The notes below the pieces were generated by a model, which did not search any database, was not told the origin of the DNA, and saw nothing but the letters and a program-made list of their open reading frames with translations. DNA of 64,000 nt from Chytriomyces cf. hyalinus JEL632 (Eukaryota; Chytridiomycota; Chytridiomycetes; Chytridiales; Chytriomycetaceae). A program made the position numbers and the translations under genes. The stretch covers positions 173,378 through 237,377 of the forward strand of contig JAIWWG010000058.1 of the NCBI GenBank assembly GCA_025435555.1, written 5' to 3'. Positions 1 through 56,968 of this stretch are shown here, piece by piece (position 1 is the stretch's first letter; the number at the start of each line of letters is the position of its first letter).

Positions 1-1
1 T

Positions 2-214
2 GCCATTCGCGTTCTTTCAAATCCTTACCTGGCTTCAATGGACGCATCACAGTCTGGGCATGTTATGCTGTACTTGGGATCAATAAGTACGGTGGCAAAG
101 TGTAAAAAAGTAGGTTGGGGAACATGCGCAGAGTTGTATCGGGATTCATCTCAACAGGACAAGACTAGTACCGGGTTCAAGACATTGGTGGATTCATATA
201 AGCAGGAAGCATGA
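2..214 (+). pseudogene. 3' fragment of a 32-residue helical-repeat protein gene
   Basis: The open frame enters from the left edge and ends at TGA (212-214). It reads the last degenerate repeat (AIRVLSNPYLASMDA) and then the family's C-terminal domain with the signature CKKVGWG. Compared with the intact copy at 6464-7594, about 14 residues between the last repeat and YLGS are missing without a frame change, so this copy may be defective. The upstream part lies outside the window, so it cannot be decided whether this is a full gene or a fragment. Confidence 0.7.
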
Positions 215-6463: not shown

Positions 6464-7594
6464 TTACAATGCTTCCTGCAAATATGTGTCCACCAATTGC
6501 TCAAACCCTGCTCTTGTCTTCTCCAGTTGAGATGCATCCCGATACAAATCCGAGCATACTCCCCAACCAACCTTTTTACACTTTGCCACCATCCCTGCTG
6601 ATCCCAAGTACGACGTAGCATCCCCAAGCTGTGCATTTCGAATGAAGCCCATAAATTCTTGCCATTGCACGGCATCCATAGAAGCTAGCGAACTATTTGA
6701 AAGAACACGAACGGCACCCTTTTCGCCCAACACGCTTTGAATCTCAGGAAATTTAGCCATTAGCTCATCCACTCGCGTGCAAAAGCTATCACATGAAAGG
6801 AGACGGACTGCTGATTCAGTTCCAAGTTGACCAGACAAACGACCCAAGACAGGGAGAAGAGTGTCCGTACGAGCACAAAAGCTGCCAGTTGAAAGCAATA
6901 CCACTGCATTTTTGGTTCCAAATGCATTTGAAAGGGTGCCAAATATTGGCATGAGAGCGTCTGCCCGAGCACAAAAACTGTCTGAAGAAAGCAGCCGCAC
7001 TGCAGATTCCGTCCCGACCGTCTCAGAAAGAGATTCCAAATGAGGCAGCAGCGTTTCAACGCGAGCACAAAAGCTGTCTTTCGAAAGCAACATCACTGCT
7101 GATTTCGTTCCAATATTCTCTGACAAGTTATCCAAAATAGGCAGCAAAGTTTCCGCTCGAGCACAAAAGCTGCCTGAAGAAAGCAACATGACTGCCGATT
7201 TCGTTCCCAACTTTTCTGAAAGAGTGTTGACAATAGGAACAAGGGCTTCATGATGAGCGCAAAAGCTGCCTGTGGAGAGCAATCGAACAGCATTCGTCAC
7301 TCCAACTTGATGCGTGAGATGGTCCAGCGTCGGAAGCAGCGGATCAGTCCGAAAAGCAAAGCTTTTGGTCGAAAGCAGCCTGTCCGCTGATGTCTCGCCC
7401 ACGAGTTTTACAAGTGTTTTTAGAGTTTCGCGAGGACTTTTTGAGGCTGTGTGACGTTTGGTCGCTGTTGCAAGATGGCGGTGCAGAGATGGATTGACAC
7501 CTCGACTGAAGACTATCGATAAGTGAGTTCTGCGCAAGTTCATGTTGATGCGCGTGGGTATGGCTGGACGCAGAGCGAAGGATCTCGCGAACAT
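6464..7594 (-). CDS. Intact 32-residue helical-repeat protein with mitochondrial-type presequence (TALE/mTERF-like layout)
   Basis: Single-exon gene of 376 residues, the only undamaged member of the family here. Residues 1-65 form an Arg-rich, acid-poor N terminus beginning MFARSFALRPAIPTR, with R-H-L-A near 40 that fits an R-3 type mitochondrial processing site. Eight repeats follow at a strict 32-residue (96 bp) spacing: 66-97, 98-129, 130-161, 162-193, 194-225, 226-257, 258-289 and a degenerate 290-323. The consensus is G-T-x-x-A-V-x-L-L-S-x-x-S-F-C-A-R-x-[DE]-x-L-L-P-x-L-x-x-L-S. The two residues after LLS vary (TK, TG, SG, KD, SD, TG, CD, NS). Residues 324-376 form a conserved C-terminal domain with CKKVGWG. 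Two-helix repeats with a variable pair recall TAL-effector repeats (33-35 residues); repeat size and organelle targeting also recall mTERF proteins. The function is not known and no family is assigned. Confidence 0.85.
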   Translation of the reverse strand: MFARSFALRPAIPTRINMNLRRTHLSIVFSRGVNPSLHRHLATATKRHTASKSPRETLKTLVKLVGETSADRLLSTKSFAFRTDPLLPTLDHLTHQVGVTNAVRLLSTGSFCAHHEALVPIVNTLSEKLGTKSAVMLLSSGSFCARAETLLPILDNLSENIGTKSAVMLLSKDSFCARVETLLPHLESLSETVGTESAVRLLSSDSFCARADALMPIFGTLSNAFGTKNAVVLLSTGSFCARTDTLLPVLGRLSGQLGTESAVRLLSCDSFCTRVDELMAKFPEIQSVLGEKGAVRVLSNSSLASMDAVQWQEFMGFIRNAQLGDATSYLGSAGMVAKCKKVGWGVCSDLYRDASQLEKTRAGFEQLVDTYLQEAL

Positions 7595-7992: not shown

Positions 7993-8143
7993 TCACACTG
8001 CTCCCTGCGCGTATGCATCAACCAATCTCTCAAAACCGACTCTTGTCTTCTCATTCTGCGATGCATGTCGATACAAATCTATGCAATTTCCCCAACCAAC
8101 CTTTTTACACTTTGCCACCATCCCTGCTGATCCCAAGTACGAG
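7993..8143 (-). pseudogene. C-terminal fragment of the helical-repeat protein family
   Basis: Carries only the last 50 codons of the family (YLGSAGMV to the stop), including the CKKVGWG signature. The flanking sequence (GTGGGAAATTCGAA, then TACAAATC) recurs next to the following copy at 8151-8213, so this is a short tandem duplication of that gene's 3' end. Confidence 0.85.
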
Positions 8144-8211
8144 GGTTTAGGTGGGAAATTCGAACCACAAATCGCTTTTTATACACCCATAATCGCGCGT
8201 ACAAATCTAAA

Positions 8212-9533
8212 TTAAAGTGCTTCTTGCGCGTATGCATCCACCAATCCCTCGAACCCGGCTCTTGTCTTCTGATGCTGAGATGCACCCCTGTACAATTCCG
8301 AGCATACCCCCCAACCAACCTTTTTGCACTTTCCCACCAGCCGCACTGTTCCTAAGTACGATGAAGTATCCCCAGGTTGGGCATTTTGGACAAATTTCAT
8401 AAACTCTCCCCATTGTGACGCATCCATGGTAACCAGATAAGGATTTGAAAGAACACGAACGGCACCCTTTTCGCCCAACACGCTTTGAATCTCAGGAAAT
8501 TTAGCCATCAGCTCACCTTCCCGCACACAAAAGCCGTCACATGAAAGGGGGCGGACTGCTGATTCAGTTCCAAGTTGACCAGACAAACGATCCAAGACAG
8601 GGAGAAGAGTGTCGGTACGAGCACAAAAGCTGCCAGTTGAAAGCAATGCCACTGCATTTTTGGTTCCAACTGTATTTGATAGGGTGCCAAATATTGGCAT
8701 GAGAGCGTCTGCCCGAGCACAAAAACTGTCTGAAGAAAGCAGCCGCACTGCAGATTCCGTCCCAATTTTCTCAGAAAGAAAGTTAAAAATGTGCAGCAGA
8801 ATGTCCATGCGGCCGCTAAAGCTGTTTCTCGAAAGCAATTGGACTGCAGATTCCGCCCCCAGTTTCTCTGACAACATGCCCAACACAGGAAGCAGAGCAT
8901 CTGCTCGAGCACAAAAGCTGTCTTTCGAAAGTAACGCAACTGCCGGCTTCGTCCCCAGCGTCTCAGAGAGTTTAACCAAAATAGGGAGGAGAGCCTCATG
9001 ATGTGCGCAAAAACTATTGCTTGACAGCAACGTGACTGCTGATGTCATCCCAATTTCACTGAAAACATGTGCAAAACAGGAAGCAGAGCATCCGCGCGAG
9101 CACAAAAACTGTCCTTCGAAAGTAACGCAACTGCCGGCTTCGTCCCCAATGTCTCAGAGAGATCAACCAAAATAGGGAGGAGAGCCTCATGATTTGCGCA
9201 AAAACTATTGCTTGAGAGCAATCGAACGGCATTCTTTGCCCCAATTTTGTGTGTGAGATGGTCAAGAGTTGGAAGCAGGGCATCAGGTCGACAAATGAAG
9301 CCTCCGGTGGAAAGTAGCCTGTCCGCTGATGTGTTGCCGATGAGTTTAACGATCGCTTTTCGAATGTCGCGAGGACTTTTGGAGGCCGCAGATCGTGTGG
9401 TTGAAGTTGCGAGATGGCGGTGGATGGATGACTTGATATCTGGACTGAAGACAACAGAAATGGGAGTCCTGTACAAGTTGATGCTGATGCGACCGTGGAT
9501 GACTGGATATAGAGCGAAGCATCTTGCGAACAT
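8212..9533 (-). pseudogene. Ten-repeat paralogue of the helical-repeat family, broken by one frameshift
   Basis: Two overlapping frames (9045-9533 and 8212-9105) together match the intact protein from presequence (MFARCFALYPVIHGR, R-H-L-A conserved) to C terminus. The frame is lost at about 9046-9060, within the Gly that starts repeat 4, by one missing base. It would have ten repeats rather than eight. Repeats 2-3 and 4-5 are near-identical, showing a recent 192-bp duplication of a two-repeat unit. The variable pairs in order are TG, SN, KD, SN, KD, RN, SD, TG, CD, NP. Everything else is intact, so an assembly indel is a real alternative to decay. Confidence 0.85.
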
Positions 9534-9869: not shown

Positions 9870-11108
9870 CACATTTTCGCACGAGATATCCCACGTATTC
9901 TTCCACCAATTTCTCGCTTGTCTTCTGATGTTGAGATGCATCCCGATGCAATTCCGCACATTTTCCCTAACAAACCTTTTTCATACTTTGACACCGTTAT
10001 TGCCGATCCCAAGTGCAAATACGACATGACATCATCAACCTGCGCGAATCGAATAGAAATCCATAAATTCTCGCCAATTGCGTTGCGTCCATGAAGCAAG
10101 AGAAGCATTTGACAGGCCTACCCTTTTTCGCCCCAACACGGCTTCAAATCTCTGGAAATTTCGCGCATCAGTTTCATCTACTCGCACACACAAAAAACTG
10201 CCCGCAGGAAAGGAGACGGGACTGCAGATGCTGTTCCAAGTTGCATCAGACAAAACAATCCAACATAGGAAGCAAACGATTCAGTTCGCGAACAAAAAGC
10301 CATCTCTCGAAAAAAAAGGGCCACAGCAGCGCAATTGCAGATTCCATCCCCAATGTCTGTGGAAGACTATCCAAAACAGGAAGCACAGAATCTGCGCGCG
10401 CACAAAAACTGTCGTTTCGAAAGCAACGCGACTGCATTTTTTGTTCCAATCTTCTCTGACACCATGTCCAGAACTGAAAGCAGAGCATCCAAATGCGCAT
10501 AAAGGTGGTCGAAGAAGGCCAAGCTAACTGTAGATTCCGGCCTGAGCTTTTCGCAAAGTGTTGATAACCGGAACCAGAGACTCAGCGCGAGCGCAACATC
10601 TGAATTTTGAAAGTAAGGAAACAGCCACCTTGGCCCCAATTTCTCTGATAAACTGTGAAAAACTGGAAGTAGAGTATCCGCACGAGCACAAAAGCGGACT
10701 TTGGAAAGAAACGCGACTGCAGCTTCCGTTCCGAGTTTCGCCGAAAGAGTTTCGAAAATAGGAAAGAGTGCCTCATGATGAGCACAAAAACCGTGGTTGA
10801 CAGTGACTGAACGGCATTCGTTGCTCCAATTTTGTTTGTGAGATGGTTCAGAGTTGAAGCAGCGCATGAGGCCGGCAAATGAAGCCTTTTTCGACAGTAA
10901 CGTATCCGCCGAGTCTTCGCCCACGAGTTGAACGACCGTAGTTCGAATGGCGGGACGACTTTTTGAGCCCGTATCGCCTGTGGTTGAAGTTGCAAGATGG
11001 CGGTGCGTAGATGACTTGATATCTCGACTGAAAACAATCGTAAGTTAATAAGTTGATGTTGATACGAGCGTGGATTGCTGGACGCAGGGTGCGGCATCTT
11101 GTGAACAT
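9870..11108 (-). pseudogene. Heavily decayed helical-repeat family member
   Basis: Begins with MFTRCRTLRPAIHARINI, a recognisable presequence, and keeps R-H-L-A and the start of repeat 1 (GEDSADTLLS). The body then shifts through all three frames, with repeat traces such as FCARAD and ALFPIFETLSAKLGTE about every 96 bp. The C-terminal domain is also degraded; only its DNA similarity to the other copies remains. Confidence 0.85.
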
Positions 11109-11528
11109 ACTCGTTTTTTTTTTTGTTTTTTTTTCTGTTCTTCCTCTTTCAAACGCGACCGTGCTCACCACAACTCCTGTCTCCCATCATGTCGAAAAAA
11201 AGCAGTCAGGGGAAGATGAATGCAACTCTACGCGTGAAGTGTCATCACTCCCAAAAAAAGGCACTCGCGCAACCTTCTTGCGCACTGGGAGGTTTCGGTC
11301 ACAGTTTGGTCAGGTGCAAGGATATGTGAGCACGGTTCAACGGATGAGTTCAGAAGCTTAATCGCCGCGATCGATCGTTGCGTCCATTTGAAAAAACAAA
11401 AACTTTGGTCGGCGAATAGGACGCATTCGAAATGCATTTCCAATCCCAGATTCCTATAAAAGGAACCCAACCCACCTGTCCACTTTCCAAATATGCACAA
11501 ACAAGTCATTACAAGCTCAACAACAACA
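11109..11528. other. Intergenic region and pirin promoter
   Basis: Divergent space between the decayed repeat gene and the pirin gene. Contains a T-rich run near 11115 and a TATA-like element at 11455-11462. No gene is seen. Confidence 0.55.
11455..11462 (+). promoter_or_regulatory. TATA-like element of the pirin gene
   Basis: TATAAAAG lies 67 bp before the pirin ATG, a plausible core-promoter distance. Only the sequence match supports it. Confidence 0.5.
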
Positions 11529-12750
11529 ATGTCCAAATTCACAATCAGAAGCATCGCAGCTGCGAGACCCATGGTGAGCCCAAACTCGCTCATACACGCT
11601 CAATACCCACTAATCCACCTTCCAACCCTCAGGAAACGCAAGATCCATTCCTCTTTGCCGTATACCACAAGGACCACTACCCAGCCGGCGATGACCAAAT
11701 GCAGGCTCCTCGTCGAGGAAACGGCAGTGACTGGAGCGAAGGAGCTCCGTACCGGATGTACCACGGCGATCGCGTGCCGGGATTCCCTCAACACCCACAC
11801 AGAGGCTTCGAGACTGTCACATGTACGATCGAAGGTCTGATTGACCACACGGATTCAACGGGATGTTCTGGACGGTATGTTCCTCCCTTCCGTGTTGGCA
11901 CAAACCATTTGGCTGAAAACAATCACGGCTTTTACAGATACGGAAACGGAGATTTGCAGTGGATGACGGCAGGAAAGGGTGTCGTGCATGGAGAAATGCT
12001 GCCGCTGATCAAGCAAACACCCGATGGCAATGTCATCAAGTGGTTTCAGATCTGGCTCAATCTGCCCAAAAAATCAAAGATGGTCGATCCCAACCAGAGT
12101 GAGTTTCTTTCTTTCCATTGTCAATACCCTCCGTTTTATGCTAACTCTGGCTATGTTGAACAGTGATGCACTGGGCCGAGAAGATTACAAAATTCACAAC
12201 CCCAGATTCCCTTACAACCGCAACTGTATGGGCTGGATCCCTCCACGGCCACAAAGCATTACCCCCCATCCGCGATTCATGGGCAAACGAAGAATCAAAC
12301 CCGGGAAACGACGTCAACATTTGGTTCCTGCAAATCCAACCCGGCGGCAGCATCACGCTCCCAAAAGCTGCTTCATCTCGCAGCACGCGTAGTCTCTACT
12401 TTGTCGAAGGCACCGCACTTACTCTGAACGGGGTCACAAAAGTGCCTGATTTAAGTCAAGTCGAGTTTTCAGACCCAAGCCAAGAAGAAGTGTTGCTCGA
12501 AAACTTGGGACCCAAGCTGGTTGAAGTGCTTGTTCTGCAAGGAAGAAAGATGGGAGAACCTGTTGCCAAGCATGGACCATTTGTCATGAACACGCAGGAG
12601 GAGATTATGCAGGCGTTCAATGACTACCGAACAACGCAGTTTGGAGGGTGGCCGTGGCCTGAGGATGCCATGGTGTTCCCACGGGAGAAGGGAAGATTTT
12701 TAGCATTGAAGGGAGTCGCCGAAGAGCTGCCACCCAAAAAGCAAGACTGA
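11529..12750 (+). CDS. Pirin-family bicupin protein
   Basis: Exons are 11529-11573, 11633-12098 and 12164-12750 (introns 59 and 65 nt, the second with CTAAC), giving 365 residues. The N-terminal cupin carries the family metal-site motif PQHPHRGFETVT, with further His and Glu in the LQWMTAGKGVVHGEM block. This is followed by the second cupin (IQPGGSITLPKAASSR) and a C-terminal FNDYRTTQFGGWPWP tail typical of pirins. Pirins are iron-binding proteins: some act as quercetin dioxygenases, others as transcription cofactors. No substrate can be told from sequence. A short first exon encodes only 15 residues. A decayed second copy lies downstream past a tRNA. Confidence 0.93.
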
Positions 12751-12906
12751 TGTGAAGTGCGTCAATACCTATTATGAATAAAATGTGCAGTTTAATTGGA
12801 TGTTTCTTCCACCCTCACATTTGATCGCCTGTAATTGAGCTGATGGCGCGTGACGTTACCGCAATGACATTGAAATAAAATGGCAGCAGGAGCGAGAAAA
12901 GGAGAT

Positions 12907-12978
12907 GTTCGCGCCCGGGATCGAACCGGGGACCACAAGTGTGTTAGACTTGTGTGATAACCACTACACCACGCGAAC
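12907..12978 (-). tRNA. tRNA-Val(AAC)
   Basis: 72-nt cloverleaf without intron. The acceptor stem GTTCGCG pairs with CGCGAAC, the anticodon stem CAAGT pairs with ACTTG around loop CTAACAC (anticodon AAC), and the T arm is GGTTCGATCCC. A-box-like GTGTAGTGG is present. It lies between the intact and the decayed pirin copies. Confidence 0.96.
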
Positions 12979-13079
12979 TTGTTAGTTCAGGACTGAATGG
13001 GCTTTTATTAACACAATGTGAGTCTTTTCCATGCGTTTTCTTTTGGGCAGAACGCGCTGTTTGACAGTCTGTTTTCTCT

Positions 13080-14840: not shown

Positions 14841-15131
14841 AGAAGTCAGGGCACCCCAGCTGCGGACATACAGGTCTTAAAGCAGAGACGGAGCAGGAAT
14901 CTTGCGCTCAGAGCGACTTGTTCTTTGGTACGCGTTTTCGCTGCGCATTAATCGCTTGCGCGCTATCAAGTCGAAATATTTAAGCAACGTTTTTGTTCGC
15001 CACGTTTTCCGCCTTTCTGCCCTATATCCAGCAAAGGGGACTTGATAATAATTTCAAGACAGAATTGATACAATTGTTCGAGGTGTTTATTGCGTTGACT
15101 CGCAAGTAAAATGGTATGAAAAAGTCAGCAC

Positions 15132-15791
15132 TCAGTAGTAGTTCTTGCCAGACTCAACACACCCAGAGAATGCACTGCTCACTGAGCACACAAGTCCATA
15201 TTTGCCGCAGTTATCGCTGTACTGCCAGTGCGCTGTGGGTCCAGCTGGTCCACAGACATAAATCTTGTTGTTTCCCTCGCCGCACGCGTATTGTCCTTGG
15301 TATCCCACGCAGGATGCGCCTTCCTCATATCCACCGTAGTTTGATACACGAATGCGGCTGGATTGTTTGTATTGTTGAGGCGGTGGTGGAGCCTGGTAGT
15401 TTTGCTGAGGAGGTGGTGGAGCCTGGTAGTATTGCTGAGAAGGAGGAGCCGGCTTGTATGGCGTGTCATACGAAGATCCGCTGTCGTAAGAGGAGCCGCT
15501 GCCAGTGCATCCGGCCCAGCTGGCATCTGCAAAACATTGACCAACGGCGCTGCAGTCGGAGCTGAATTGCCAGTGGGCAGTGGGACCGGCTGGACCACAA
15601 GTGAGCATTTTGGTTCCATCACAGCAGAAGTTGAGGTTGTTGTTCTTTTGGTTTGGGTTGCAGGAGGATCCCTTCACGCATGGAGTTTGAGCAGCGTAGT
15701 TTGAAGGGGAGTTGTTGGATTGCTGGAGGTAGTTGCTTGGGGCAGCTGAAGCGATGGCGGCCAAGGCAGAGAAGAGGGCAGTGTATTGCAT
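15132..15791 (-). CDS. Secreted cysteine-rich two-module protein (copy 1)
   Basis: 219 residues, single exon. A signal peptide (MQYTALFSALAAIASAAP) is followed by module 1 (about 38-95, eight Cys, CCDGTKMLTCGPAGPTAHWQ), a Pro/Gln/Tyr linker with three APP(P)xQQ(N)Y units (about 108-140), and module 2 (about 155-215, six Cys, YVCGPAGPTAHWQYSDNC). The shared CGPAGPTAHWQ core shows that the modules are homologous. A carbohydrate-binding or wall role would suit a secreted, disulphide-rich, aromatic module pair, but no known family is recognised. The paralogue at 41371 differs at only a handful of residues. Confidence 0.85.
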   Translation of the reverse strand: MQYTALFSALAAIASAAPSNYLQQSNNSPSNYAAQTPCVKGSSCNPNQKNNNLNFCCDGTKMLTCGPAGPTAHWQFSSDCSAVGQCFADASWAGCTGSGSSYDSGSSYDTPYKPAPPSQQYYQAPPPPQQNYQAPPPPQQYKQSSRIRVSNYGGYEEGASCVGYQGQYACGEGNNKIYVCGPAGPTAHWQYSDNCGKYGLVCSVSSAFSGCVESGKNYY

Positions 15792-15842
15792 TTGTGAGTT
15801 TGAAGTTGTTGTTGTGGGAGGGAAGAGGGAATATCCATGCCG

Positions 15843-15850
15843 TTTATATG
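15843..15850 (-). promoter_or_regulatory. TATA-like element of Cys-rich gene copy 1
   Basis: Reads CATATAAA on the minus strand, about 55 bp upstream of the ATG. It is conserved in the duplicate promoter at 42082. Confidence 0.5.
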
Positions 15851-15935
15851 CGTTTGGGTCAGTCGTGTTCGATTGAACACTTTCAGGATTCGAACCTTGG
15901 GTTGGTTGACAAACTCAAATTTGTCGAACTTTTGT

Positions 15936-16164
15936 TATTTTTGGTGTTCAACATCAAAACAAGCATCCTGAGCAATAACAAAGAACAACGAACGCGGTTT
16001 TGCTTTCATTGCTTCGAAAAGTAGAACGGACAAACCCCAACGCATCCATCCATCACCAAGTGAATGAATGCATGCGCAACTTCAGGCGCGACTGACTTTT
16101 CATTGTCTTTGGATGCACGCCTTCGTGTTTTCTGGCCAGTGTTTTGGGACTCCCGATTCACCAA
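15936..16164. other. Intergenic, no feature seen
   Basis: Unique sequence between the segmental duplication and the duplicated subtilase 3' end. Confidence 0.5.
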
Positions 16165-17228: not shown

Positions 17229-17500
17229 CAAATATAAACAAACCATCATATTTTTTACTTTCAACTAAAACACAAGAGAAAAGAAAACGACCAACAAGTA
17301 TCCAACCGATAAAACGCACCAAAAAAAAAGAAAAAAAAAGAGAAGCAAGAGAGTATAAAACGTCTACTTTTTTTTTTTTAAAAAATCTAGAGCATCAAAG
17401 CGAGACCGGCAAAAGCGGCAAAAGCGCTAGCAACAGTCGAAACTGCGCTGGACTTGTACAAGTTGGTTGGCTTGGGGGTAGCGGGTGCTGGTGGGGCAGC
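17215..17500. repeat. Duplicated subtilase 3' end (copy B, in its native place)
   Basis: Direct repeat of 16165-16450; here it forms the true 3' end and C-terminal codons of subtilase 1. Confidence 0.85.
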
Positions 17501-20500
17501 GTAGGTGGGGGAGGCAATGATGACTGGGACGTAGGTTGGTGCAACGCTGGCAGATGCAGATGGGGCAACGCTGGCAGATGCGGATGGGGCAACGCTGGCG
17601 GAGCCACTTGGGTCAGAGACGACTGAGGAAACAGTGGCGGCTGAACCAGTAGCAGCAGAGGCAGTGGCAGCAGAACCAGTAGCGACAACAGTTCCAGTAG
17701 ACGCAGAAGAGCCGACAACAGTTCCAGTGGAAGCAGAAGAACCAGCAGTAGTAGCAACAGAGCTAGCAGAAGAAGCAGTGGCGGTAGTAGCAACAGAAGA
17801 AGCAGTCGAAGCAGAGCTGGATGGCTCAACTTCACCGGTGGAAAGCTTAAACTTTGGGGACAAGATGACGTCAAAGTCGTTTTCGTTTTTGCTGTCGAGA
17901 ATGCAAAAGTTTTTGACGGCAGTGAACTTGACCTTGTACTCTCCCTGGGGGAGGGCGGCAGCGTAACCGCTGGCGTTGTAGGCCTTTCCAAAGAATCCCC
18001 AAACGTTGGGTGGAGCAGCTGGTGCAGCGCCAGCGTAGGAGTGTCTCTGCATGGGGACGAAGAGGGCAGCAGTGACTGGGTTTCCTTCCGTAATCAAATC
18101 GGTAAGTTGAATGTAGATGGGGGCGGAGGTGTTGAAACCAGCGGCCTCAAGGGAGCTGGATCTCTTGGACACGCCTTGGGCAATGATTTCGATAAACGCT
18201 CCACGGGTGGTACTCGAAGCAACAGCCAAAAGACCAGCACCAGTTGTAGCGTTGATGACGGCTCCTTCAGTCAAAGTGTTAAAGTCCATGTCGGCAAAGA
18301 GTCCAGTGGACACAGAGGGAAGACCGGTTGGCTTGCCCCATCTTTCAGCAAGGGAGGCAGATTCGCGAGACCAAATGGCCTTGCTCTTGTAGGATCCAAG
18401 AACTCCTGCGTATGGAACATGGATTGGGTAGTCTGCCTGGTTAGACGCGGAGATATAAATGTATCCAGAGTAGATTGGGAGTGGAGTAAGAGCAGTTTCT
18501 TCGGTAAACTGGACAGTAACCTGCGCAGATGCGCCGGCAGCAATGGTCAGAGAGTTGACGGAGAAGGAAAGCTGGGCGTGCTGGTCCTCAGTGAAGGTGG
18601 TGGTGGTGGCATCCTGGGTAAAGTCATCTCCGGCCAAGTATCCGTTCACAGTGGCAGCATTGAGGTAAGACAACTCGTATGTGACTGGCTCAACATCGTT
18701 GTTTTGGATAGTCAGGACGGTGGAGGGCTTAAAGTTCTCAGTGTCGTTCAGGGCAATGGCAGATGGGAGGACAAGAGACTTGGTGGAAGCGGCAAAGAAG
18801 GCGTTGACCAAACCAGCTCCTTGGTAAGCGACAGAGTTGAAGGATTTGGACTGGTAGATGTTTCTTGGGGAAGCAGTGTTTTGCAGGTATCCACGGACTT
18901 CCTCAAACTTGATTCCACGAGCTTGTCTCTGCTGAAGAAGCAGGGCAGTGACTCCGGCAGAGTACGGGGACGCCATGGAAGTTCCACTGTATGATCCGTA
19001 TGGAACAGCGTAGTTTTCAACCTGGGCAGCGTGGACAGACACAGTGCTGTAAACTTGACCACCGAGACCTCCAAAGTCTGGCTTGATTTCCAAGTCGAGG
19101 GACAAACCGGGGGACGAGAAGGAAGAGATGGTTCCGGCGGTTGGGATTGGGTAAGGCTTCTGCTTGGTGGTGAAGACAAAGTTTGGCTTTCCACCAGCCT
19201 TGATCTTGGCAATCAAGGCAAGACCTCCGGCGCGACTCAAGAACATGCTTGGGAGACCCTTGTTACCAGCGATTCCGACGAGTTCATCGGTGTTTCCGTA
19301 AAGAATACATTGGGCAGCTCCTGCAGCGAGTGCGTAACCGCAACGCTTGGAGCTTCCTCCCTGAGTGGTGCTTCCCCAACGAAGGAGGAGGGCCTTTCCT
19401 TTAGCAGCTGGGTTAAGGTTGGTGGCTCCATCGGTCTGAAGATCAGTGTCATCGGCAGTGAGGTCTAAAAATTTGAAAAGTCAGATACGGGGGCGTGAAT
19501 GAATCAGGTTTACTGGCTTACCGTTGACAACAATGTCCAAGACCTGGCCATCAACGAATGAAGCATTGTTTTGGCCCAAACCGTAGAAGTAGGACTGGTC
19601 ATCAATAGTAGAGTATGGCAAAGGAGTGACGGTGTTGTCGAACGAGGCAACAGAGAGACCACCTTGAGCGTTACTGGGGTTTCCAGTCACTTGAAGACCC
19701 TTGGCACCAGAGTTACCGGCAGATGCAATGACAATGTGTCCGTATTTTCCAACAATGCTAGCGGCAATGGTGTCGGGCTCATCGGAGTAGTCTGGGCCAC
19801 CACCAAGAGACAGGTTGATGATATCAGCACCGGCATCAGCGGCTCTGTAAATGGCAGCAGTGACAATATCGGTTCCAGTGTTGTCAGCTGGGCATCCAAA
19901 GACTCTGAATGCGAGAAGGTTGGCCTCATAGGCGACACCGGTGAATGGAACGGCTGGCTCGAATCCTCCTTCAACAATGTTACGCGCGTCGGCGGCAACG
20001 ATACCGGCGACGTGAGTTCCGTGGGAGTTTCCACTGCAATTGTCGATGGGGTCATCGTCTGGGACTGGCACTGGGTTGGCGGCAGAGTAGTCGTCACCGA
20101 CCAAGTCGTATCCACCAAGGACCTTGAATCCTTTTCCGATACCACCTCCAAGGGCTGGGTGCAAGTAGTAGATACCACTGTCAATGATGGCGACGGTGAT
20201 TCCCTTTCCGGTAAGTCCGAGCTTGTTGCGTGCATCGTTCACACCTAGAATGAGTTACACGATCAGTTTGCACATCGGATCAATCACTTTAAAATACATC
20301 CGTACCAGTGATGGAGTGGTAAGCTTCGTCGCTAATTGGGTGTCCGGCATCGCCTGATGCTACGACTGGCTGTGGGGCAGGTCTCGAAGTGACAACAGAG
20401 AAGGAAGACGCCCTGGGGAGTCCGGCAAAGATGGTATCAGCGTCCTCTGCAAAATCAGGAATGGGATTACAAATACGGTCTCAAGAGATGGGATCATATA

Positions 20501-20769
20501 AGGGGGACAGAAAACTCACGACAGTCTCCGACGAGCTGAACAGAGACAAAGTTGGCGTATTTGTTATTGATGGAGGTACGCTCTGTCCACTGGATACCCT
20601 TTCCGGCGAGGTGCTGGTTCAGGAGGGCATGGCCATCAACGCCTTGCTCAAAGTCGATGAGGAAAGCGCAGGTGAGGGCGTTGGGTGCATCGACCGGGGC
20701 ACCACGTCTAACAAGGGCGAATGTCTGGGAGGCCAGGAGCAGCGAGGAGAGGAGACCCGTCAGCTGCAT
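17387..20769 (-). CDS. Secreted subtilase 1 (S8 family, PA domain, GPI-type tail), frame broken in exon 2
   Basis: Exons 20520-20769, 20306-20447, 19522-20244 and 17387-19464 follow the same four-exon plan as the neighbours. Order: signal peptide, propeptide with NFVSVQLVGDC, S8 core with Asp in VAIIDSGIYY, His in SHGTHVAGIVA, PA domain (LLLRWG, then RCGYALAAGA), Ser in SGTSMASPYSAG, Fn3-like region, a very long Ala/Ser/Thr/Val linker (about 130 residues), and a PKPTNLYKSS...LALML tail as for GPI anchoring. Exon 2 carries one extra base near 20400 relative to the paralogues; it leads to a stop before exon 3. If this is an assembly error the protein has about 1063 residues; otherwise it is a very young pseudogene. 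Probably an extracellular digestive protease. Confidence 0.85.
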
Positions 20770-21598
20770 GTGTGTGTGTTGTCTATTTCTAAGGTGATCT
20801 GAGACGTGTGTGCTGGGAATGCGCTTGGGTTTTTAAGGTACAAGCCCAAAGATTTTCATGTGCATCATGTGACTAATTTAATCAGAGTGTGGCACAGGAG
20901 TCAGCCACTCAAGCGCCACTTCAACTCAAACACCCAAGTGTTGGTGGGGGGGTGAGTTCCATGCGAGTGCAGTGTGTTGATCATTGTCACACGTGTGTTG
21001 CGGCACACTTGCGGCACACGTGCGGCGGCGGCAACAGACATGCGGCGTTAACACGGTTTGGGTCGCCTCACAAGCCTGCAATTGCGCAAGGTGCACAAGC
21101 CCAACCACGTCTAAATTGGACTCCTTCTGGATGTCGCGATATCATGCGAGGTCGTGATGCGCATGGATCAAGTCCCGATCCCATCCATTTATCCATCCAT
21201 CCATTTATCCATCCATCCATCCATCTTCAGGAATCACGCGTTCGTTGATTCTCGTTGGACCCACGCTTATTTTAAATATATTATATCGGGTGTCATTGCT
21301 GATATATCGGATATAAACATGACATCTTTTATTGACAATTTCAAAGGCAACCAACCAACACCTGAGTTTGTAAAACAACAACAACAAATCCACCAGCTTC
21401 TTCCGTCTGAAAATAAAACATTCAACAGCGATTACAAAGACCCGTTAACTCCGCCCCTGCGAGAATCGAAAGAAACAAATGCGGCGCGACCCACAAGTCC
21501 AGAAATCACATTCGCAAAAACTTATTATTATTTTTCAACAACAACACACACGTAAAAGTATAAAACCGATATTAGAAAAGGGCGCGCGTTCACCAACT
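20770..21598. other. Intergenic region between subtilases 1 and 2
   Basis: Holds the subtilase 1 promoter, a (CATC)n/ATTTATC tract (21178-21228) and the 3' flank of subtilase 2. A 78-codon frame from ATG 21318 has no recognisable feature and is not called. Confidence 0.55.
21178..21228. repeat. CCAT microsatellite
   Basis: Runs of CCAT mixed with CCATTTAT over about 50 bp. Confidence 0.85.
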
Positions 21599-24500
21599 TT
21601 AAAACATGAAAGCGGCACCAACAAAGGCAGCAAACACGCTACCAAAGGTAGAAACGGCACCAGCCTTGTACAAGTTGGTTGGGGTAGCTGGTGCTGGGGC
21701 AGCGTACGTTGGGGACGCAACAACCACTGGGACAGAGGTGGAGGCGGCAGCGGATCCAGAAGCACTTGGGGCAACGGATCCAGTGGGCGCAACGGATCCA
21801 GTGGGGGCGACGGATCCAGTGGCGGCAGAAGATCCGGTTGGGACAGAAGCAGATCCGGTGGCAGAAGAAGCAACAGAAGAAGCGGTGGAAGCAGAGCTGG
21901 ATGCAACTGGAGTGGCGCCATCCACAAGACGGAAGGCTGGGGACATGATAATGTCAAAGTCCTCATCCTTGGTGCTGGAAGCAGAAGCAAAGTTTCTGAC
22001 AGCGCTGAACTTCATCTTGTAGTTTCCGGAAGGCAAGAGAGCTGGGTTACCGTTGGCATCGTACGCAACACCGGCGAAAGCCCAGATGGTGGGTGGAGCA
22101 GCTGGTGCGGCGCCAGCGTAAGAGTGTCTCTGCATTGGGACAAAGATTCCAGGGCTGGATGGGTTTCCTTCAGCAACGAGGTCAGTAAGGCGGGCGTAGA
22201 TTGGTGCAGACGTGTTGAATCCGGCAGCCTCGAGATCGCTTGTGGATCTCTTTTCGTTGGATCGGGGAACAGCGGGGAGAATCTCAATGTAACCTCCACG
22301 GGAAGTACTGGAAGCAACAGCCATGACACCGGCACCGATGGTAGCATTGATGACGGCACCTTCAGTCAATGGGTTAAAGTCCAAATCAGCGTAAAGTCCA
22401 GTGGCAACGGTTGCTTCAGTAAGCCCGTAATCAGCTCCCCATCTTTCAGCAAGGGAGGCAGATTTGCGGGACCAGATGGCCTTGTTCTTGTAGGATCCAA
22501 CAACTCCAGCGTATGGGACATGGATTGGGTAGTCTTCCTGGTTGGAGGCAGTGATTTGAAGGTATCCAGAGTAGATTGGGTAAGGGGTGAGGGCTTCGGG
22601 TGCGTTAAACTGGACAGTCACTTCGGCAGATGCACCAGCGGCAACCTTGATGGAAGAGGACGAGAAAGAAACGCCAGCTTGTTGGTCCTGGGTGAAGGTG
22701 GTGGTAGTAGCGTCCAGAGTAAAGTCATCACCGACATTGTAGGCGTTCACAGTGGCGGCGTTGAATGAGTTGAAGCTGTAGCTGACTGCTTCTTTGCCAT
22801 TGTTGCGGATGGTCAAAACGGCAGATGACTTGAAGTTGTCAGTGTCCTTCAAGGCAATGGCAGATGGCGTGACAAGGGTTTGAGCTGAGGCAGCGTAGTA
22901 GGCGTTGAGCAGACCGGCTCCTTGGTAAGCAACAGAGTTGACGGATTCGGTTTTGAAGATTGTCTTTGGGGAAGCAGTGTTCTGGAGGTAGGCACGGAGG
23001 TCTTGGAACGATGGGTTCTCGGCTTTTCTTTGCTGGAGCAAAAGAGCAGTGATTCCGGCAGAGTATGGAGAAGCCATCGAAGTTCCACTGTACGATCCGT
23101 ATGGGAGGGGGAAGTTCTGGTGCTGAGCAGCGTGGACGGAGATGGTGCTGTAAACTTGTCCACCAAGACCACCAAAGTCTGGCTTAATTTCCAAGTCGAG
23201 GGAGAGACCGGGGGAAGAAAAGTCGGAGATGGTTCCAGCAGTTGGGATGTTGAAAGGCTTCTGCTTGGAAGTGAAGACAAAGTTTGGCTTGCCACCAGCC
23301 TTGACTTTGGCGATGAGTGCGAGACCACCTTCACGGCTCAAGAACATGCTTGGGAGACCCGCGTTTCCGGCGATTCCGACGAGTTCTTGAGTGTTTCCGT
23401 ACAAGATGCAGCGGGTTGCACCGGCAGCAAGGGCGTATCCACAACGCTTGGAACTTCCACCTTCAGTAGTGGATCCCCAACGAAGGAGGAGGGCCTTTCC
23501 TTTGGCGGCAGGGTTGATGTTTGTGGCACCATCGTTTTGAATGTTGTTGTCATCAGCAGTGATGTCTGTTCAAAAAATGGTGAGTTCGGTGCCAAGTTCC
23601 ACCAAAAAATCAGTTCAGTGAGAGGAACGTACCATTCACAACAATGTCAAGGGATTCTCCCTCAACAAAGCTTCCGTTGTTACCGCCGAGTCCGTAAAAG
23701 AATGGCTGGTCATCAATCAGCGAGTAAGGCAAAGGAGTGACCGTGTTGTCGAAGGATGCAACAGAAAATCCACCGTTCGAGTTACTTGGGTTTCCAGTAA
23801 CCTGGATACCTTTATCACCAGAGTTTCCGGCAGAGGCCAAGACAAAGTGTCCAGCTTTTCCAACCACCTCGGCGGCAATGGTGTCAACTTCATCAGGGTA
23901 GTCTGGGCCTCCTCCAATGGACAAGTTGATGACATCAGCACCGTCATCGGCGGCTCTGTAAATGGCAGCGGCCATCACATCGGAAGCAGTGCTGTCGGCA
24001 GGGCATCCGAAGACTCTGTAAGCCAGGATGTTGGCCTCGTAGGCAACACCGGTGAAAGGCATGGCAGGGACAAATCCATCAACCTTGATGTCACGAGCAT
24101 CTCCGGCAACGATACCGGCAACGTGGGTTCCGTGGGAGTCGTCACTGCAGTTGTCGATAGGGTCATCATCGGGGGTGATGGTTTGGTCACCGATAGAGTA
24201 AGCGTCTCCGACCAAGTCGTAGCCGCCAACAACCTTGAAGCCTTTTCCGATACCGCCTCCGAGAGCTGGGTGCAGGTAGTAGACACCGGTGTCAATGACG
24301 GCGACAGTGATTCCCTTTCCGGTGAGTCCGAGCTTGTTGCGCGCATCGTTCACACCTGTACGGGATGGATGGGTTGGTTAGAACAAAACTCAAAGGCTGA
24401 GCGCAAAGCGTGGAAGCGTACCAGTGATGGAGTGGTACAGTTCGTCGCTGTGTGGAACGCCGTTGTCGGACTTTGTTGGCTTGGGTCCTGGACGGGAGGT

Positions 24501-24913
24501 GACGGAGGAGAAGGAAGTGGCTCTGGAGAGTCCTTGGAAGATGGTGGCGGCATCCTCTGATTGTTGGGAATGAGAAGTTGCGTCAGTGATGTCATCATTA
24601 TTATTGGTAATCAGGGAGATGAGGGGGGGATTGAAGCCAAGACAAAAATATTGAGCCACTCACGGCAGTCTCCAACGAGCTGGACCGAGACAAAGTTGGC
24701 GTACTTGTTGTTGATGGAGGTACGCTCGGACCACTGGAGACCCTGCAGAGCGAGGTGCTTTGCGAGGATGGCGTGTCCATCAGCGCCCTGCTCAAAGTCA
24801 ATGACAAAGGCGCACTTGAGGGCGGTGGGGGCATCGACGGGAGCACCACGTCTGACGATGGCGAGTGCCTGGGTGGCCAGAAGCAGCGATGCGAGGATGG
24901 GGGTCAGCTGCAT
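21599..24913 (-). CDS. Secreted subtilase 2 (S8 family, PA domain, GPI-type tail)
   Basis: Exons 24664-24913, 24422-24556, 23633-24355 and 21599-23565 join cleanly to 1024 residues. Signal peptide MQLTPILASLLLATQALA; an RRGAP propeptide start; catalytic Asp near 149 (AVIDTGVYY), His near 202 (DDSHGTHVAG) and Ser near 532 (GTSMASPYSAG); oxyanion Asn in ASAGNSGDKG. A PA domain is inserted before the Ser, followed by an Fn3-like C-terminal region. The Ser/Thr/Ala linker holds repeated A-P/T-G-S-V units and ends in a hydrophobic tail (ATPTNLYKAGAV...GAAFMF). Large parts of exon 4 are almost identical in DNA to subtilase 3, pointing to gene conversion or recent duplication. Secreted or surface-bound digestive protease. 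Confidence 0.95.
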
Positions 24914-25488
24914 CTTGTGTCTATTCTAGTTGGGATGTAGTTTAGGTGTGCCTTTGTTGGGCATGTAGGTTTCTTATATAAACTGAATGCACAAGCCCAG
25001 TGAAATTTTTATAATATTTAATCAAACAGAATCAGCCACCCACAAGTGTTTTAATCAAAAGGGATGAGTAATTGCAAGCGGCCATTGTCGCAGGTCCACC
25101 GTCCACCCCCATTTGAAGTTGAAGCGTGTCTGTTGCAAGTCTGCATGTCCGAATAAGATGTCCGGAACCTTCTTGACTGACTGTGCGCGTGGTGGTCGGA
25201 CTTGAGACGGCTGACGGACTTGCATGGAAGGTGATGGAACAATTGCGATATTTACTCTTTGTTGGTGCCGTGGCAGATGCGACTTGCATGGAAGGTGTTA
25301 AAATGCATTCAGACCGTCAATCTTTTCCGGACAAAGTGCATTTGTGCTGTTGGTGCTGTTGGCGTTTATTCTGAATCCAAATCATTTTTCATTTTCGCTT
25401 CGTTAGAAATGTGGCTTGAATCACCAATTGTTGCTTCCTCCACCTGGACTGACATGGTCACCAGATCCTCTTTTTCGTCCATCCCAAA
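24914..25488. other. Intergenic region between subtilase 2 and the seven-helix protein
   Basis: Promoter of subtilase 2 on the left and the 3' flank of the membrane-protein gene on the right. The sequence AATCAGCCACCCACAAGTGTTTTAATCAAAA near 25030 recurs near 30665 upstream of subtilase 3, so the promoter was duplicated with the gene. No gene is seen. Confidence 0.6.
24974..24982 (-). promoter_or_regulatory. TATA-like element of subtilase 2
   Basis: Reads TTTATATAA on the minus strand, about 60 bp upstream of the ATG. Confidence 0.5.
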
Positions 25489-26460
25489 CTAGGACTCCTC
25501 GTCACTGGTTTTGCCGTACTCCTCCAACTTGCCAGTGCCACCACTCAACAGTTTCCCGTGCCCAGCCTCCAACTTGATCTTCATCACCAGCAACACAATC
25601 GACGTCATCGCTGCGCCAGAATAAGCACATACAATCAACAAGTTTGCGTATGCATTCAAAGAAGGAAGCAGTTGATTCCCGACAATGATCCCCAGCGATA
25701 CAACGGAAGCACCACATGAAAACGCCCCATATTTTGCAATAATGCTGGTCCGGTTCCACTGTTTTTTTGCCTCGCTGTTTCCATTGAATTGTCCCGTTGA
25801 TGACAATGGAGCTGCGTTTTTCAAAAGAAAGTAGCAGAAGCAAGACAGCATTCCTGCATCCATCAAAACCATCCCAGCAAGAGTCGCCACGGCAACATCA
25901 TGGTAAAGCTGGATACTTGACAATTGATATTCAAATAAAACTGCTGTGACGAGTTGCGCCATGAATAGGATCGGGTTTAAAATAGCCAATGCCGTGAGGA
26001 TCCAGTAGAGAATGCTCCCACTTTCGCCAATGAGCGATTGGGATCGAGACCAAGTATAGATACAATAGCATGATTCAAACAGCGTTCCACCGATGGATTC
26101 GAGCACTGTCGCACCTTTCACGGTCCCTGGTTTGTGAGACTGAGGAAGCGAAAGCAAGACTGAGGCAAACAGCGCAGCTGATCCCAAAACCATTCCCAAC
26201 AACGATATGTTGAAAACAGTAAACACTGGCCGAAACGCGTGCCGCGTTTTATTCCCTGTGGACTGGCCGCCAGTTGAAGACTGTGTAGTAGTCCTGTTTT
26301 GATTTGTGGACCTGAAAACGACGGTAAGCAGCGTCATCCCCATGACCACCACCATGACGGCTGCGATGCAGAACGCGGCCATGTCAGCGTCAGTCATGTT
26401 TGCTCGCATTGTGGGCAGATTTACATGTTTCTCACCAGACACCGACAAACTTGGTCTCAA
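25489..26460 (-). CDS. Seven-helix membrane protein of unknown function (receptor-like topology)
   Basis: 323 residues (fewer if the ATG at residue 18, 22 or 27 is used), single exon. Seven hydrophobic helices are visible: about 28-50, 80-103, 117-135, 143-170, 180-203, 230-252 and 262-285. A short N terminus is followed by a polar Asn/Thr/Ser loop after helix 1, and a charged C-terminal tail (KLEEYGKTSDEES) that would be cytosolic in a receptor-like orientation. No GPCR-class motif (DRY, NPxxY) is clear, so this is only a topology-based label. Confidence 0.75.
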   Translation of the reverse strand: MRPSLSVSGEKHVNLPTMRANMTDADMAAFCIAAVMVVVMGMTLLTVVFRSTNQNRTTTQSSTGGQSTGNKTRHAFRPVFTVFNISLLGMVLGSAALFASVLLSLPQSHKPGTVKGATVLESIGGTLFESCYCIYTWSRSQSLIGESGSILYWILTALAILNPILFMAQLVTAVLFEYQLSSIQLYHDVAVATLAGMVLMDAGMLSCFCYFLLKNAAPLSSTGQFNGNSEAKKQWNRTSIIAKYGAFSCGASVVSLGIIVGNQLLPSLNAYANLLIVCAYSGAAMTSIVLLVMKIKLEAGHGKLLSGGTGKLEEYGKTSDEES

Positions 26461-27153
26461 CTTTTTATTGCTCCGTTCGAAAATTACTCATGCACTCATG
26501 AATTGACTTTTTTTTTTTTTGGTTCGGATCATGCTTTGGTGAGCCATCAGGCACTTATTCTTCATCTTTCACGCTGGAAATGAAAAACGACGGGGGTTGC
26601 CTTTTGACAGTTCAAGTCAAAAGTTGGGAACACACAAGCAAAAACCGCTTGGGATTAACATTTTTTGGAGAAATCTTTGCGACAACTCTCACACCAAAAC
26701 GCGTGGACATGAGAAGACATTCCACGCAACAAACTACGGAAAAAATAGGCACGCCAGCCCCCCCCCCCCCCCCCCCAACCAGCCAATTCCTACTGCTTTT
26801 CCAAGTTCCTCTCCAAATGTCCCTTCAATCGAAACAACCGTCACAATCCGATGCCAAACAACACGGGATTTTAATAAAATGTTTGTTTCACAAATAAAAT
26901 ATGTAAAAAAGTAAAGATATTTTTGGACGCCGCGTTTTTCAACAGGGACAATCAGGAGCAGAATGCCACGGCCGTGTGAGTGCTGTGTTGTCATCAACTT
27001 GAACAACAGGCCAGCAAAACCAAGACAACAAATCCCGACTTTTCAAAATTTTCAATCGTCTCTTTTTTTTTACTTTTTAAAAAAAACACACTCTTATATC
27101 GCACACAAAACCAAAAAAAGGGAAACCGATATTAGGAAAAAAGGCATCACACC
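26461..27153. other. Intergenic region with a long poly-C run
   Basis: 5' flank of the seven-helix gene and 3' flank of subtilase 3. Contains a T run near 26509, a C19 tract at 26758-26776 and A-rich stretches. No gene is seen. Confidence 0.6.
26758..26776. repeat. Poly-C tract
   Basis: Nineteen consecutive C, unusual in this moderate-GC sequence. Its exact length may be a sequencing artefact. Confidence 0.8.
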
Positions 27154-39417: not shown

Positions 39418-40615
39418 TTATACTGCTTCCTGCAAGTATTCATCCAACAATCTCTCAATCCGGTTCTTGTCTTTTCATGCTGAGATGCTTGCTGATACAG
39501 ATCCATGCAATTTCCCCAACCAACCTTTTTAAACTTCCCCACCGACCGCCATGTCCCCAAGTACGATATAACATCTCCAAGCTGCGCGCATCGAATAAAC
39601 TCCATGAATTCTTGCCATTGTGTTGCATCCATAGAGGCCAGAGAATCCGTTGAAAGAACTCGAATGGCACCCTTTTGACCCAACACAGCTTGAATTTCTG
39701 GGAATTTAGCCATTAGCTCATCTACTCGCACACAAAAGCTGCCACAGGAAAGAAGACGGACTGCAGATTCTGTTCCAAGTGCATCAGACAAGGAACCCAA
39801 TACTGGAAGCAGAGTGTCGGCTCGAGCACAAAAGCTGGCACTCGAAAGCAACGCCACTGCAGGTTTTGCCCCAATTTCTGTTGAGAGAGAGTTTAATATT
39901 GGCAGGAGGGTCTCAGCTCGAGCACAAAAGCTATTGGTTGAAAGCTTCCGTCCCAACTTTCACGCAAAGAGAGTTCAAAATTGGCAACAGAGAACCGGCC
40001 CGAGTACAAAAACTGCCTGAAGACAGCAGCCTAACAGCCGACTCCGTTCCCAGTTCCACTGAGAGAGAGTTCAAAACAGGCAGCAGAGTCTCAACCCGCG
40101 AAGAAAAACTATCCGTTGAAATAAGCGCAACTGCAAACTTCGTCCCCAGTTTCTCTGATAGCATTTCCATAACAGGAAGTAACGAATCCGCACGAGCACA
40201 AAAGCTGCTTTTCAATAGCATGACTGCCGATGCCATCCGCAACTTTTCTGAAAGAGTTTCGAAAACAGGGAGGAGAGCCTCATGATGTGCCCAAAAACCG
40301 TCGGTTGAAAGTAATCGAACAGCATTCTTCGCTCCAATCTTGTTTGTGAGATGGTCCAGAGTTGGAAGCAGCGCATGAGGCCGGCAAATGAAGCCGCCGG
40401 ACGAAAGCAGTTTGTCCGCTGAGGTCGCGCCCACAAGTTTAAGGAGTGTTTTTCGAAGTTCGCGAGGACTTTTTGAGGCGGCATAATGTGTGATTGATGT
40501 TGCAAGTTGGCGGTGCAGGAATAGTTTGATATCTCGGCTGAGGACAATCGCGACTGGGGTTCTGTACAGGTTGATGTTGATGCGAACGTGGATAGCAGGA
40601 CGCAGAGCGATGCAT
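39418..40615 (-). pseudogene. Helical-repeat family member with frameshifts and lost start
   Basis: Matches the family from the presequence (ALRPAIHVRININLYRTPVA, R-Q-L-A at the processing site) to the C-terminal domain. The normal ATG has been lost and a stop (TGA) precedes the frame. The frame breaks at the repeat 5/6 junction (about 39945) with a few residues missing, one repeat is 31 residues long, and the C terminus shifts after EKTRTG, so the usual LVDEYLQEAV end is read only in another frame. CKKVGWG has become FKKVGWG. Traces of nine repeats remain, with pairs SG, TD, KS, TD, SG, TN, SA, CG, TD. Confidence 0.88.
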
Positions 40616-46700: not shown

Positions 46701-46838
46701 GCGTCTGCTCCGTCGACCAATATTTTGAAGGCTGCTACTGCGCAAAAGTTAGCTTCGCGGCTTTCGTTACTTCTTCAATCCGAGTTTCCGTTAAGTTTAA
46801 ACTCGTGGCGCCGCATCTTGGGATTTACGTCACCTTGA
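43731..46838 (+). CDS. Secreted subtilase 4, divergent, without the Ser/Thr linker
   Basis: Exons 43731-43983, 44050-44181, 44252-44974 and 45037-46838 give 969 residues. Exon phases and the 723-nt third exon are the same as in subtilases 1-3, showing common origin. Signal peptide, RRGAP propeptide start, Asp in AIIDTGVYYLHP, His in EISHGTHVAG, Asn in GNSGAQG, Ser in SGTSMASPYAAG, PA domain and Fn3-like region are present. It lacks the long Ser/Thr/Ala linker and the GPI-type tail, ending instead in a basic segment (KLASRL, then NSWRRILGFTSP), so it is probably fully secreted. The C-terminal part of the substrate-side loops (SPVSLNPSVFVDGGSYP) also differs. Confidence 0.94.
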
Positions 46839-48381: not shown

Positions 48382-48609
48382 CAACGAACGGAACTAAGCG
48401 CTGAACAAGAGGTCTTTTCGATGGTACGTTTGAGTTGCTTTCATCACGAGCGTGGTTGGCATTCATCTTTCCTTTTAGCGTTTGTTTAATGCGACATCTT
48501 CTAGAAATGACGCTGGAAAATTTTGAAGGACCTCCGGATTTTTGACCGCAGCCCATAAAGTGCAAGGGGCATGTCTTCATGAACTGCATGCACATTATCA
48601 GAAAAGGTT

Positions 48610-49065
48610 GGGGTTAAATCTGCAGAGACATTGCTTTCGAGAGACAGCTTTTGTGCTCGCGCCGAGTCTCTGCTTCCCGTCTTGGATCGCCTGTCTGATA
48701 AACTTGGAACAGAATCTGCCGTCCGTCTCCTTTCCTGCGACGGATTTTGTGCACGGGTAGATGAACTGATGGCTAAATTTCCTGAGATTCAAACCGTGTT
48801 GGGTGAGAACGGTGCCATTCGTATTCTTTCGAATAATTATCTGGCTTTTATGGATCCGTTACCATGGCAAGAATTCATGGATTTTATTCGATGCGCGCAG
48901 CCTGGAGATGTTCTGTCGTACTTGGGATCAAATATAACGATGTCAAAGTGTAAAAAAGTTGGTTGGGAAAAGTGCACAGATTTATACCGGAATGCATCTC
49001 AACACGAGAAGACAAGAGTGGGGTTCACGAGATTGGTGGATGCATATGTGCAGGAAACAGTATGA
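48610..49065 (+). pseudogene. 5'-truncated helical-repeat family member
   Basis: Begins inside a repeat (LLSRDSFCARAESLLPVLDR) right after unrelated sequence and continues in frame through a CD-type repeat, the ELMAKFPEIQ repeat, the last degenerate repeat and a complete C-terminal domain (CKKVGWE) to a stop at 49063-49065. There is no presequence; an ATG at 48631 is created by chance inside the repeat. It is on the plus strand, unlike the main cluster. Confidence 0.85.
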
Positions 49066-52495: not shown

Positions 52496-52507
52496 CTCCC
52501 CCTACCC
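52496..52507 (-). promoter_or_regulatory. Copia polypurine tract
   Basis: On the minus strand GGGTAGGGGGAG directly abuts the 3' LTR, the expected plus-strand primer site. Confidence 0.75.
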
Positions 52508-54604: not shown

Positions 54605-55578
54605 ATCTGCGCATGTACTTCAGGTTTGGTTTCTTTCCTGTCATTGCTTCGATTGGCGTCTTGTTCCCTGTGATTGCTTTTGTTGGGCATCTGTTCCTGA
54701 TGAAAACAGCCATCTCAAGTGCATATATCCAGTACTTTTTCTTGTCCAGTTTTGCATCTGCTAACATTGTTCTGCACATTTCTATCACGGTACGGTTCTT
54801 TCTTTCGGCAATTCCATTCTGCTCCGGTGTGTATGGTGTCGACACATTGTGCTTGATCCCGTTTGCGTCGCACCATTTCGTAAACTTGTGATTGATGAAT
54901 TCGCCTCCCCTGTCGGATACAATGGCCTTTAATTTGTGGTTAAACTGTGTTTCGATTAATTTGATGATGTCGAGGATTCCTTGGAGTGCGTCGCTTTTCT
55001 TTCCGAGTATCTTTGCAAACGTGCATCCACTTCCGGTGTCAGATACCATTAGAATTGGCGTTCCCTCTACAAAGGTAAGATCCAAATTTAGTTCCTCGCC
55101 TGGCTTTTCGACTCGGTCTGATTTCCCTTTTCCCACGCTTCTTGTGGTTTTTGATTCCATGCACATGCTGCAGTCTCCGAGTTCTCCGTCCTTGATGTTG
55201 ATGCCGTCAGCTTGTTCATTTAGCTTTCTTAGATCCTTTGCGTTCAAGTGTCCCATGAATCGGTGAGCTTCCTTCAATGTGATCACCCTTGTTGTTACAT
55301 GTGTTGTTAATCCCGCTTTGTTCTCCTTCAGAGTGTATAGTCCTTCGCGAATGTCTGTGGCGCGGAGGATGATTTTGTCCTTCATTGAAACTGACACGCC
55401 TTTTTCGTCGAAGTTGACGGTCGCTCCTTTTACACTGAGCGCTGAGATTGATAATAGGTTCACTGATAATTCCGGTACGTACAGGACTCCAGTGATTGTG
55501 ACTGTCCCCTCCTCACCCTTTAGCTCCACAGATCCGACTCCCATTATTTCGAACTGGTCGCCGCTTGCTACCGTTACG
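54546..55578 (-). CDS. Copia integrase part of pol (protease C-terminal remnant included)
   Basis: Open from the solo-LTR edge. Starts with the region after the protease (LYVPELSVNLLSISAL), then the HHCC zinc domain (HRFMGHLNAKDLR ... CSMCMESK) and the DDE core (LDLTFVEG, VSDRGGEFIN, NGIAERKNRTVIE). It ends near 54590, where the frame shifts into the RT frame. Confidence 0.9.
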
Positions 55579-56937: not shown

Positions 56938-56968
56938 GGTAGGTCTTTGTTTTTGCTTAGTTGGTTGG

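Follow-up and report, generated by a model that had tools for sequence, protein, structure and literature searches.

Does a fungal nuclear genome encode its own family of modular nucleic-acid-binding repeat proteins, comparable in layout to the transcription activator-like effectors (TALEs)? The question is raised by a repeat gene at positions 6464–7594 of a 64,000-nucleotide stretch of the Chytriomyces cf. hyalinus JEL632 genome, here called the window. We find that this gene belongs to a multicopy family of 32-residue repeats that is under purifying selection, and that is new by sequence and nearest to the TALE-likes in predicted shape. We tentatively favour the reading that it is a mitochondrial modular nucleic-acid-binding family whose TALE-like fold arose by convergence.

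The 376-residue product is strongly periodic: identity at lag 32 across residues 65–320 reaches 0.51, where 10,000 shuffles give at most 0.15 and the best lag other than 32 between 20 and 44 gives 0.10, at lag 39. This bears out the reading frame and period proposed in an earlier note on this DNA, which had also correctly placed the gene in a fungal nuclear genome. That note counted eight repeats. Seven of these (residues 65–288) are regular and follow one another without a single insertion or deletion, whereas the eighth (residues 289–320) is divergent and has a helical C-terminal domain behind it. The blocks described there as near-invariant are so in part, with LLS present in 7 of 7 repeats but SFCAR exact in only 4 of 7 and LLPVL in only 1 of 7. 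Positions 12 and 13, singled out as a variable pair, do vary within the family, but so do several other positions.

Residues 1–54 contain no Asp or Glu, ten Lys or Arg and four His, with the motif RHLAT close to the end, and paralogues also carry RHLAT or something close to it. This segment, which we take to be like a mitochondrial presequence, is basic and acid-free as such presequences are, and the family proteins are probably imported into mitochondria.

One search of the 37.8-Mb genome with the product of the 6464–7594 gene returns 86 matches on nine contigs. Twenty-two of these start within query residues 1–24, from which we count about 22 gene starts. Seven copies form a single frame from presequence through C-terminal domain, with 7, 12, 10, 10, 10, 8 and 7 repeats; one of them stops early at a TAG inside the C-terminal domain, and another has no Met at the start of the presequence. 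The remaining copies are split or interrupted by stops, and some of the frameshifts may come from assembly errors or introns. The first two, last-but-one and last repeats are recognizable between genes, and the middle repeats differ in number.

All 64 repeats of the seven single-frame genes are exactly 32 residues long and all have Phe at position 15. Position 14 is Ser in 47, Gly in 15 and Arg in 2, and 50 of the 64 have Asp, Gly or Asn at position 13. Residue pairs at 12–13 in the family include TD, TN, SD, CD, KD and TG. TALE repeats have Gly at position 15 and a Gly-rich turn (Gly14, Gly15) after the variable pair, where the Chytriomyces repeats have mostly Ser and then invariably Phe. Nor is variability largely confined to positions 12–13 as in TALEs: among the 50 inner repeats of the seven genes, entropy is 2.94 bits at position 28, 2.47 at 8, 2.39 at 12, 2.28 at 27, 2.15 at 13, 2.11 at 31 and 2.04 at 32. 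In Bat proteins, according to the available part of their description, variability is likewise not limited to 12–13 (PMC4066763).

No Pfam or NCBIfam family scores above its cut-off over the repeats of the window protein, 22 family members or their relatives, and a sequence search of the PDB gives no match below E 0.4. At E ≤ 10 the window protein does not match the TAL_effector family (PF03377), which is also missing from the 21 families listed for the 22 members, a negative limited by the HMMER filters, which drop most weak matches; a PF03377 search of the genome, run without a positive control, also found none. The mTERF family (PF02536) is equally without a match in the window protein (E ≤ 10) and among those 21 families, and PPR and TPR are absent from the Pfam families listed for the same proteins. 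HHH_5 (PF14520) appears in 4 of the 22 members (best 22 bits, E 0.00023, over 18 to 41 residues), in all four below its 27-bit cut-off, and weak matches to XylR_N, DUF7260 and C12orf66_like were set aside as below cut-off. These sequence-profile searches give no confident match to a known repeat family. Given the absence of a profile match, the 32-residue module, Phe15 and the spread of variability, we treat this as a new solenoid family, nearest to the TALE-likes in predicted shape. The earlier note's likening of the repeats to those of TALEs does not extend to membership, and its interpretation taken overall is partly supported.

The widest protein search (5.8 billion proteins) yields 21 proteins at E ≤ 10, 15 from Chytriomyces, including the window's own, and six metagenomic; the protein searches scored only proteins with shared exact five-residue words, at most 8,000. 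Two metagenomic proteins, P0007 and P0009, have the repeats and C-terminal domain in common with the family and a different N-terminal half, and P0008 has the repeats in common; the first two repeats of P0009 are found 33 residues apart. P0018 and P0020 share, by eye, only the N-terminal half of P0007 and P0009, and P0021 has one repeat at E 3.5, which is not significant. Viral contigs gave no relatives, whether queried with P0007 or with a two-repeat alignment. The family was not found in the available parts of the literature on the Chytriomyces hyalinus genome, JEL632, TALE-likes, mTERF and OPR or restorer proteins.

In repeats 1–6 of the structure model of the window protein (model 1), a helix at positions 3–10 is followed by a short helix at about 13–17 and a long one at 19–33, giving three modelled helical segments per repeat (DSSP). 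Among the 50 matches listed for model 1, the best are TALE and BurrH, and mTERF is the second-best natural fold; sequence identity in the structural alignments is 11–15% (matches 1–38). This one model suggests that the fold is most like the TALE/BurrH DNA-binding solenoid; the likeness probably arose by convergence.

The repeats are under purifying selection. The ratio of nonsynonymous to synonymous divergence (w) lies between 0.17 and 0.35 in all 21 pairs of the seven single-frame copies, with a mean of about 0.25, the repeats being paired by alignment such that some pairs may not truly correspond. Repeat pairs that are 80% or more identical in DNA (189 pairs from 119 core repeats, some of them from broken copies) give a corresponding ratio of differences per site (pN/pS) of 0.37, and pN is highest at positions 17, 13, 12, 1, 3, 32 and 31. 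Of the 122 amino-acid changes in 33 independent close pairs, 16 are at positions 12–13, above the expectation of 2/32 (p 0.004).

A stretch of another contig of the same genome, C28:46000-79984, is colinear with window positions 770–39231 over more than 30 kb, mostly at 80–88% DNA identity (pieces compared), and is a haplotype, a homeologue or a large duplication of the window region. Synonymous divergence (dS) between neighbouring genes of the two (two genes, plus a third over its first half) is 0.22–0.28, with w of 0.06–0.10. The repeat genes at the same place on C28 and on C197, the contig carrying the window, have a dS of 0.77 and 68% amino-acid identity. In that region C197 has three repeat copies and C28 one; the N-terminal half of the C28 copy is closest to the third, decayed copy (82%) and its C-terminal half to the first (77%, flank included). 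A counterpart of the copy at 39453..40611 was not seen on C28, where homology stops at window position 39231 with 2.1 kb of contig left. The divergence of the repeat genes and the difference in copies indicate that, in this region, gain, loss and re-lengthening of family members have outpaced change in the surroundings.

The family members are nuclear-encoded, probably imported proteins, each a predicted α-solenoid of exactly 32-residue modules with recognizable end repeats, followed by a conserved C-terminal domain. On the reading that we tentatively favour, they would act as modular nucleic-acid binders in the mitochondrion. The solenoid would wrap mitochondrial DNA (mtDNA) or a transcript; the length of the site would follow from how many repeats there are, and its sequence from the residues at the turn after helix 1 (12–13) and on the helix faces (8, 27–28). 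By analogy with restorer-like PPR and OPR families, gene gain, loss and re-lengthening may track a fast-changing mitochondrial target. Taken literally, the TALE comparison would have position 13 read the base. The family would then be a eukaryotic mitochondrial TALE analogue, an independently evolved one-module-one-base reader diversified to follow mtDNA or its transcripts. We regard this stricter form as distinctly unlikely, and Asp, Gly and Asn as ordinary turn residues account for the pattern at position 13 equally well.

Several observations count against a TALE-like nucleic-acid binder. One confident model is nearest to TALE/BurrH, but there is no Foldseek match at E ≤ 0.001, and two of the five models in its set had a predicted local distance difference test score (pLDDT) of 56–61. 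The model of the 12-repeat paralogue has low confidence (pLDDT 58.3), with only other α-solenoids and no TALE among its 50 matches listed. Phe15 replaces the TALE Gly. More changes fall at positions 31–32 (19 of 122) than at 12–13, and pN(12,13)/pS is 0.86 (bootstrap 0.44–1.47), so diversifying selection at 12–13 is not demonstrated and these positions are free to vary. The computed isoelectric point (pI) is 5.7 for the repeats and 5.25 for the C-terminal domain, and most nucleic-acid binders are not acidic in this way. The acidity of the repeats is the main reason that a protein-binding α-solenoid of HEAT, ARM or TPR type stays close as a rival: the protein would be a mitochondrial scaffold or assembly factor with its concave face on a protein. 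We consider this somewhat unlikely, as model 1 resembles TALE/BurrH much more closely than it does any protein-binding solenoid in the 50 matches listed; turnover and changing repeat number suit an arms-race target, although that target could also be a protein.

A family of mTERF or pTERF type acting on mtDNA or rRNA would share modules of some 30 residues, each with three helical segments, and mTERF is mitochondrial in animals. The mTERF motif, as given in the available part of a 2024 survey, has Pro at position 8 and hydrophobic residues at 11, 18 and 25 (PMC11417379). Among 118 selected repeats, Pro is present in 79% and the three hydrophobic positions hold a hydrophobic residue in 5%, 0% and 99%, respectively; the heptad rule fails by sequence at two of three hydrophobic positions, and such an origin is unlikely. 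Descent from bacterial TALE-like genes of an endosymbiont, retargeted to mitochondria, would fit the fold class of model 1, and TALE-likes are reportedly found in endofungal Mycetohabitans. A fungal TALE-like, AspSTAR1 from Apophysomyces, appears in the available part of the same survey (PMC11417379). We nonetheless judge this descent very improbable given the empty PF03377 searches, the low identity in the structural alignments, the 32-residue module with Phe15 and the failure of the protein searches to find an intermediate sequence. Least credible of all is a decaying, largely functionless expansion carried by segmental duplication: a single frame through the C-terminal domain follows only 7 of the roughly 22 gene starts, two of these frames being flawed, but w and pN/pS are low and the arrays keep perfect 32-residue register.

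Repeat-family features in the window (C197 coordinates in brackets)
Feature	Position	Strand	Basis or detail
Intact repeat gene, 376 aa	6464..7594	-	Stop included; open reading frame, 96-bp tandem array inside, lag-32 test
Presequence-like N-terminus, residues 1-54	7433..7594	-	Residue composition; pLDDT <50 at residues 1-50
Seven gapless 32-aa repeats, residues 65-288	6731..7402	-	Repeat alignment, predicted structure
Divergent eighth repeat and C-terminal helical domain, residues 289-376	6467..6730	-	Alignment, structure model
C-terminal fragment of further copy	7999..8148 (C197:181376-181525)	-	Query residues 326-375, 78% identity
Second copy, two frames	8212..9533	-	9045-9533 N-terminal part, 8212-9048 rest
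Third copy, decayed, in-frame stops	9892..11053	-	Best match of N-terminal half of C28 copy
Further copy, two frames, one with in-frame stop	39453..40611	-	Genome search
C-terminal fragment of further copy	48589..49059 (C197:221966-222436)	+	Query residues 219-375
End of decayed copy beginning before window	1..211 (C197:172944-173588)	+	Genome search

Near these copies lie a pirin-like and a secreted-protein gene (named by eye; 11400-12984 and 15100-15950). The pair recurs on C14:22966-28767 at 97 and 99% DNA identity, with a repeat-family copy between, and on C169:17654-20674 at 86–91%. Several subtilisin-like protease genes (by eye) lie beside repeat genes (17387-29028 and 45258-46838), and of their 15 matches in the genome the best six all fall on C197 or C28. 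Frames of a Copia-type retrotransposon (integrase and reverse transcriptase parts, by eye) occupy 52502-57114 (-). A subtelomeric site of the family is unsupported, exact (TTAGGG)4 occurring only on C94, C111, C193 and C209, none of which carries the family. Among the metagenomic relatives, P0007 and P0009 carry an unassigned N-terminal domain of some 230 residues ahead of the repeats, and P0018 and P0020 have this domain without repeats; a guess from P0020 that it is uracil-DNA-glycosylase-like was dropped, with no library support. In P0005, P0010 (on C169) and P0011, which come from three Chytriomyces gene sets, a Methyltransf_25-like domain is annotated in one protein with a divergent family member; it is separate from the repeats and scores 26.7 (P0005) and 26.3 bits (P0010) against a 27-bit cut-off. 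These proteins may be real fusions or merged gene models; the repeat frame on C169 also has a basic start of its own.

Compared with the TALE-likes (TAL effectors, RipTALs, BurrH/BAT and STAR), the family has a similar layout and, in one model, a similar fold. TALE-likes have modules of 33–35 residues in two-helix hairpins and a secretion signal, whereas the Chytriomyces family has exactly 32 residues, three modelled segments and a mitochondrial-type presequence, with no sequence match to them in the PF03377 searches. The repeats of STARs have 34 positions and, for the most part, canonical variable pairs, and the Chytriomyces family has neither. Chytrids go unmentioned in the available part of a report that screened about 47 million proteins in a TALE-inspired search (PMC5472282). 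The 2024 survey, which reports the STAR proteins, with AspSTAR1 the first TALE-like from a species of eukaryote, and also covers bacterial pTERF, uses neither the word chytrid nor the word fungus in the available main text (PMC11417379). With AspSTAR1 already reported, a claim for a fungal TALE-like protein would no longer be the first. If fold and import hold, the Chytriomyces family would be a counterpart of TALEs from a eukaryote, one already directed to mitochondria, a compartment in which tools that depend on guide RNA perform poorly. Its gapless 32-residue modules, occurring naturally in arrays of 7 to 12, allow a direct test for a code. In genome organization the family resembles the restorer-like PPR and OPR families, likewise nuclear gene clusters that encode organelle-targeted helical-repeat proteins and include many broken copies, although their modules have 35 (PPR) or 38–40 (OPR) residues. 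In plants and algae those families follow fast-changing organelle targets, and on the same provisos of fold and import the Chytriomyces family would be the fungal counterpart of the plant restorer-like repeat families.
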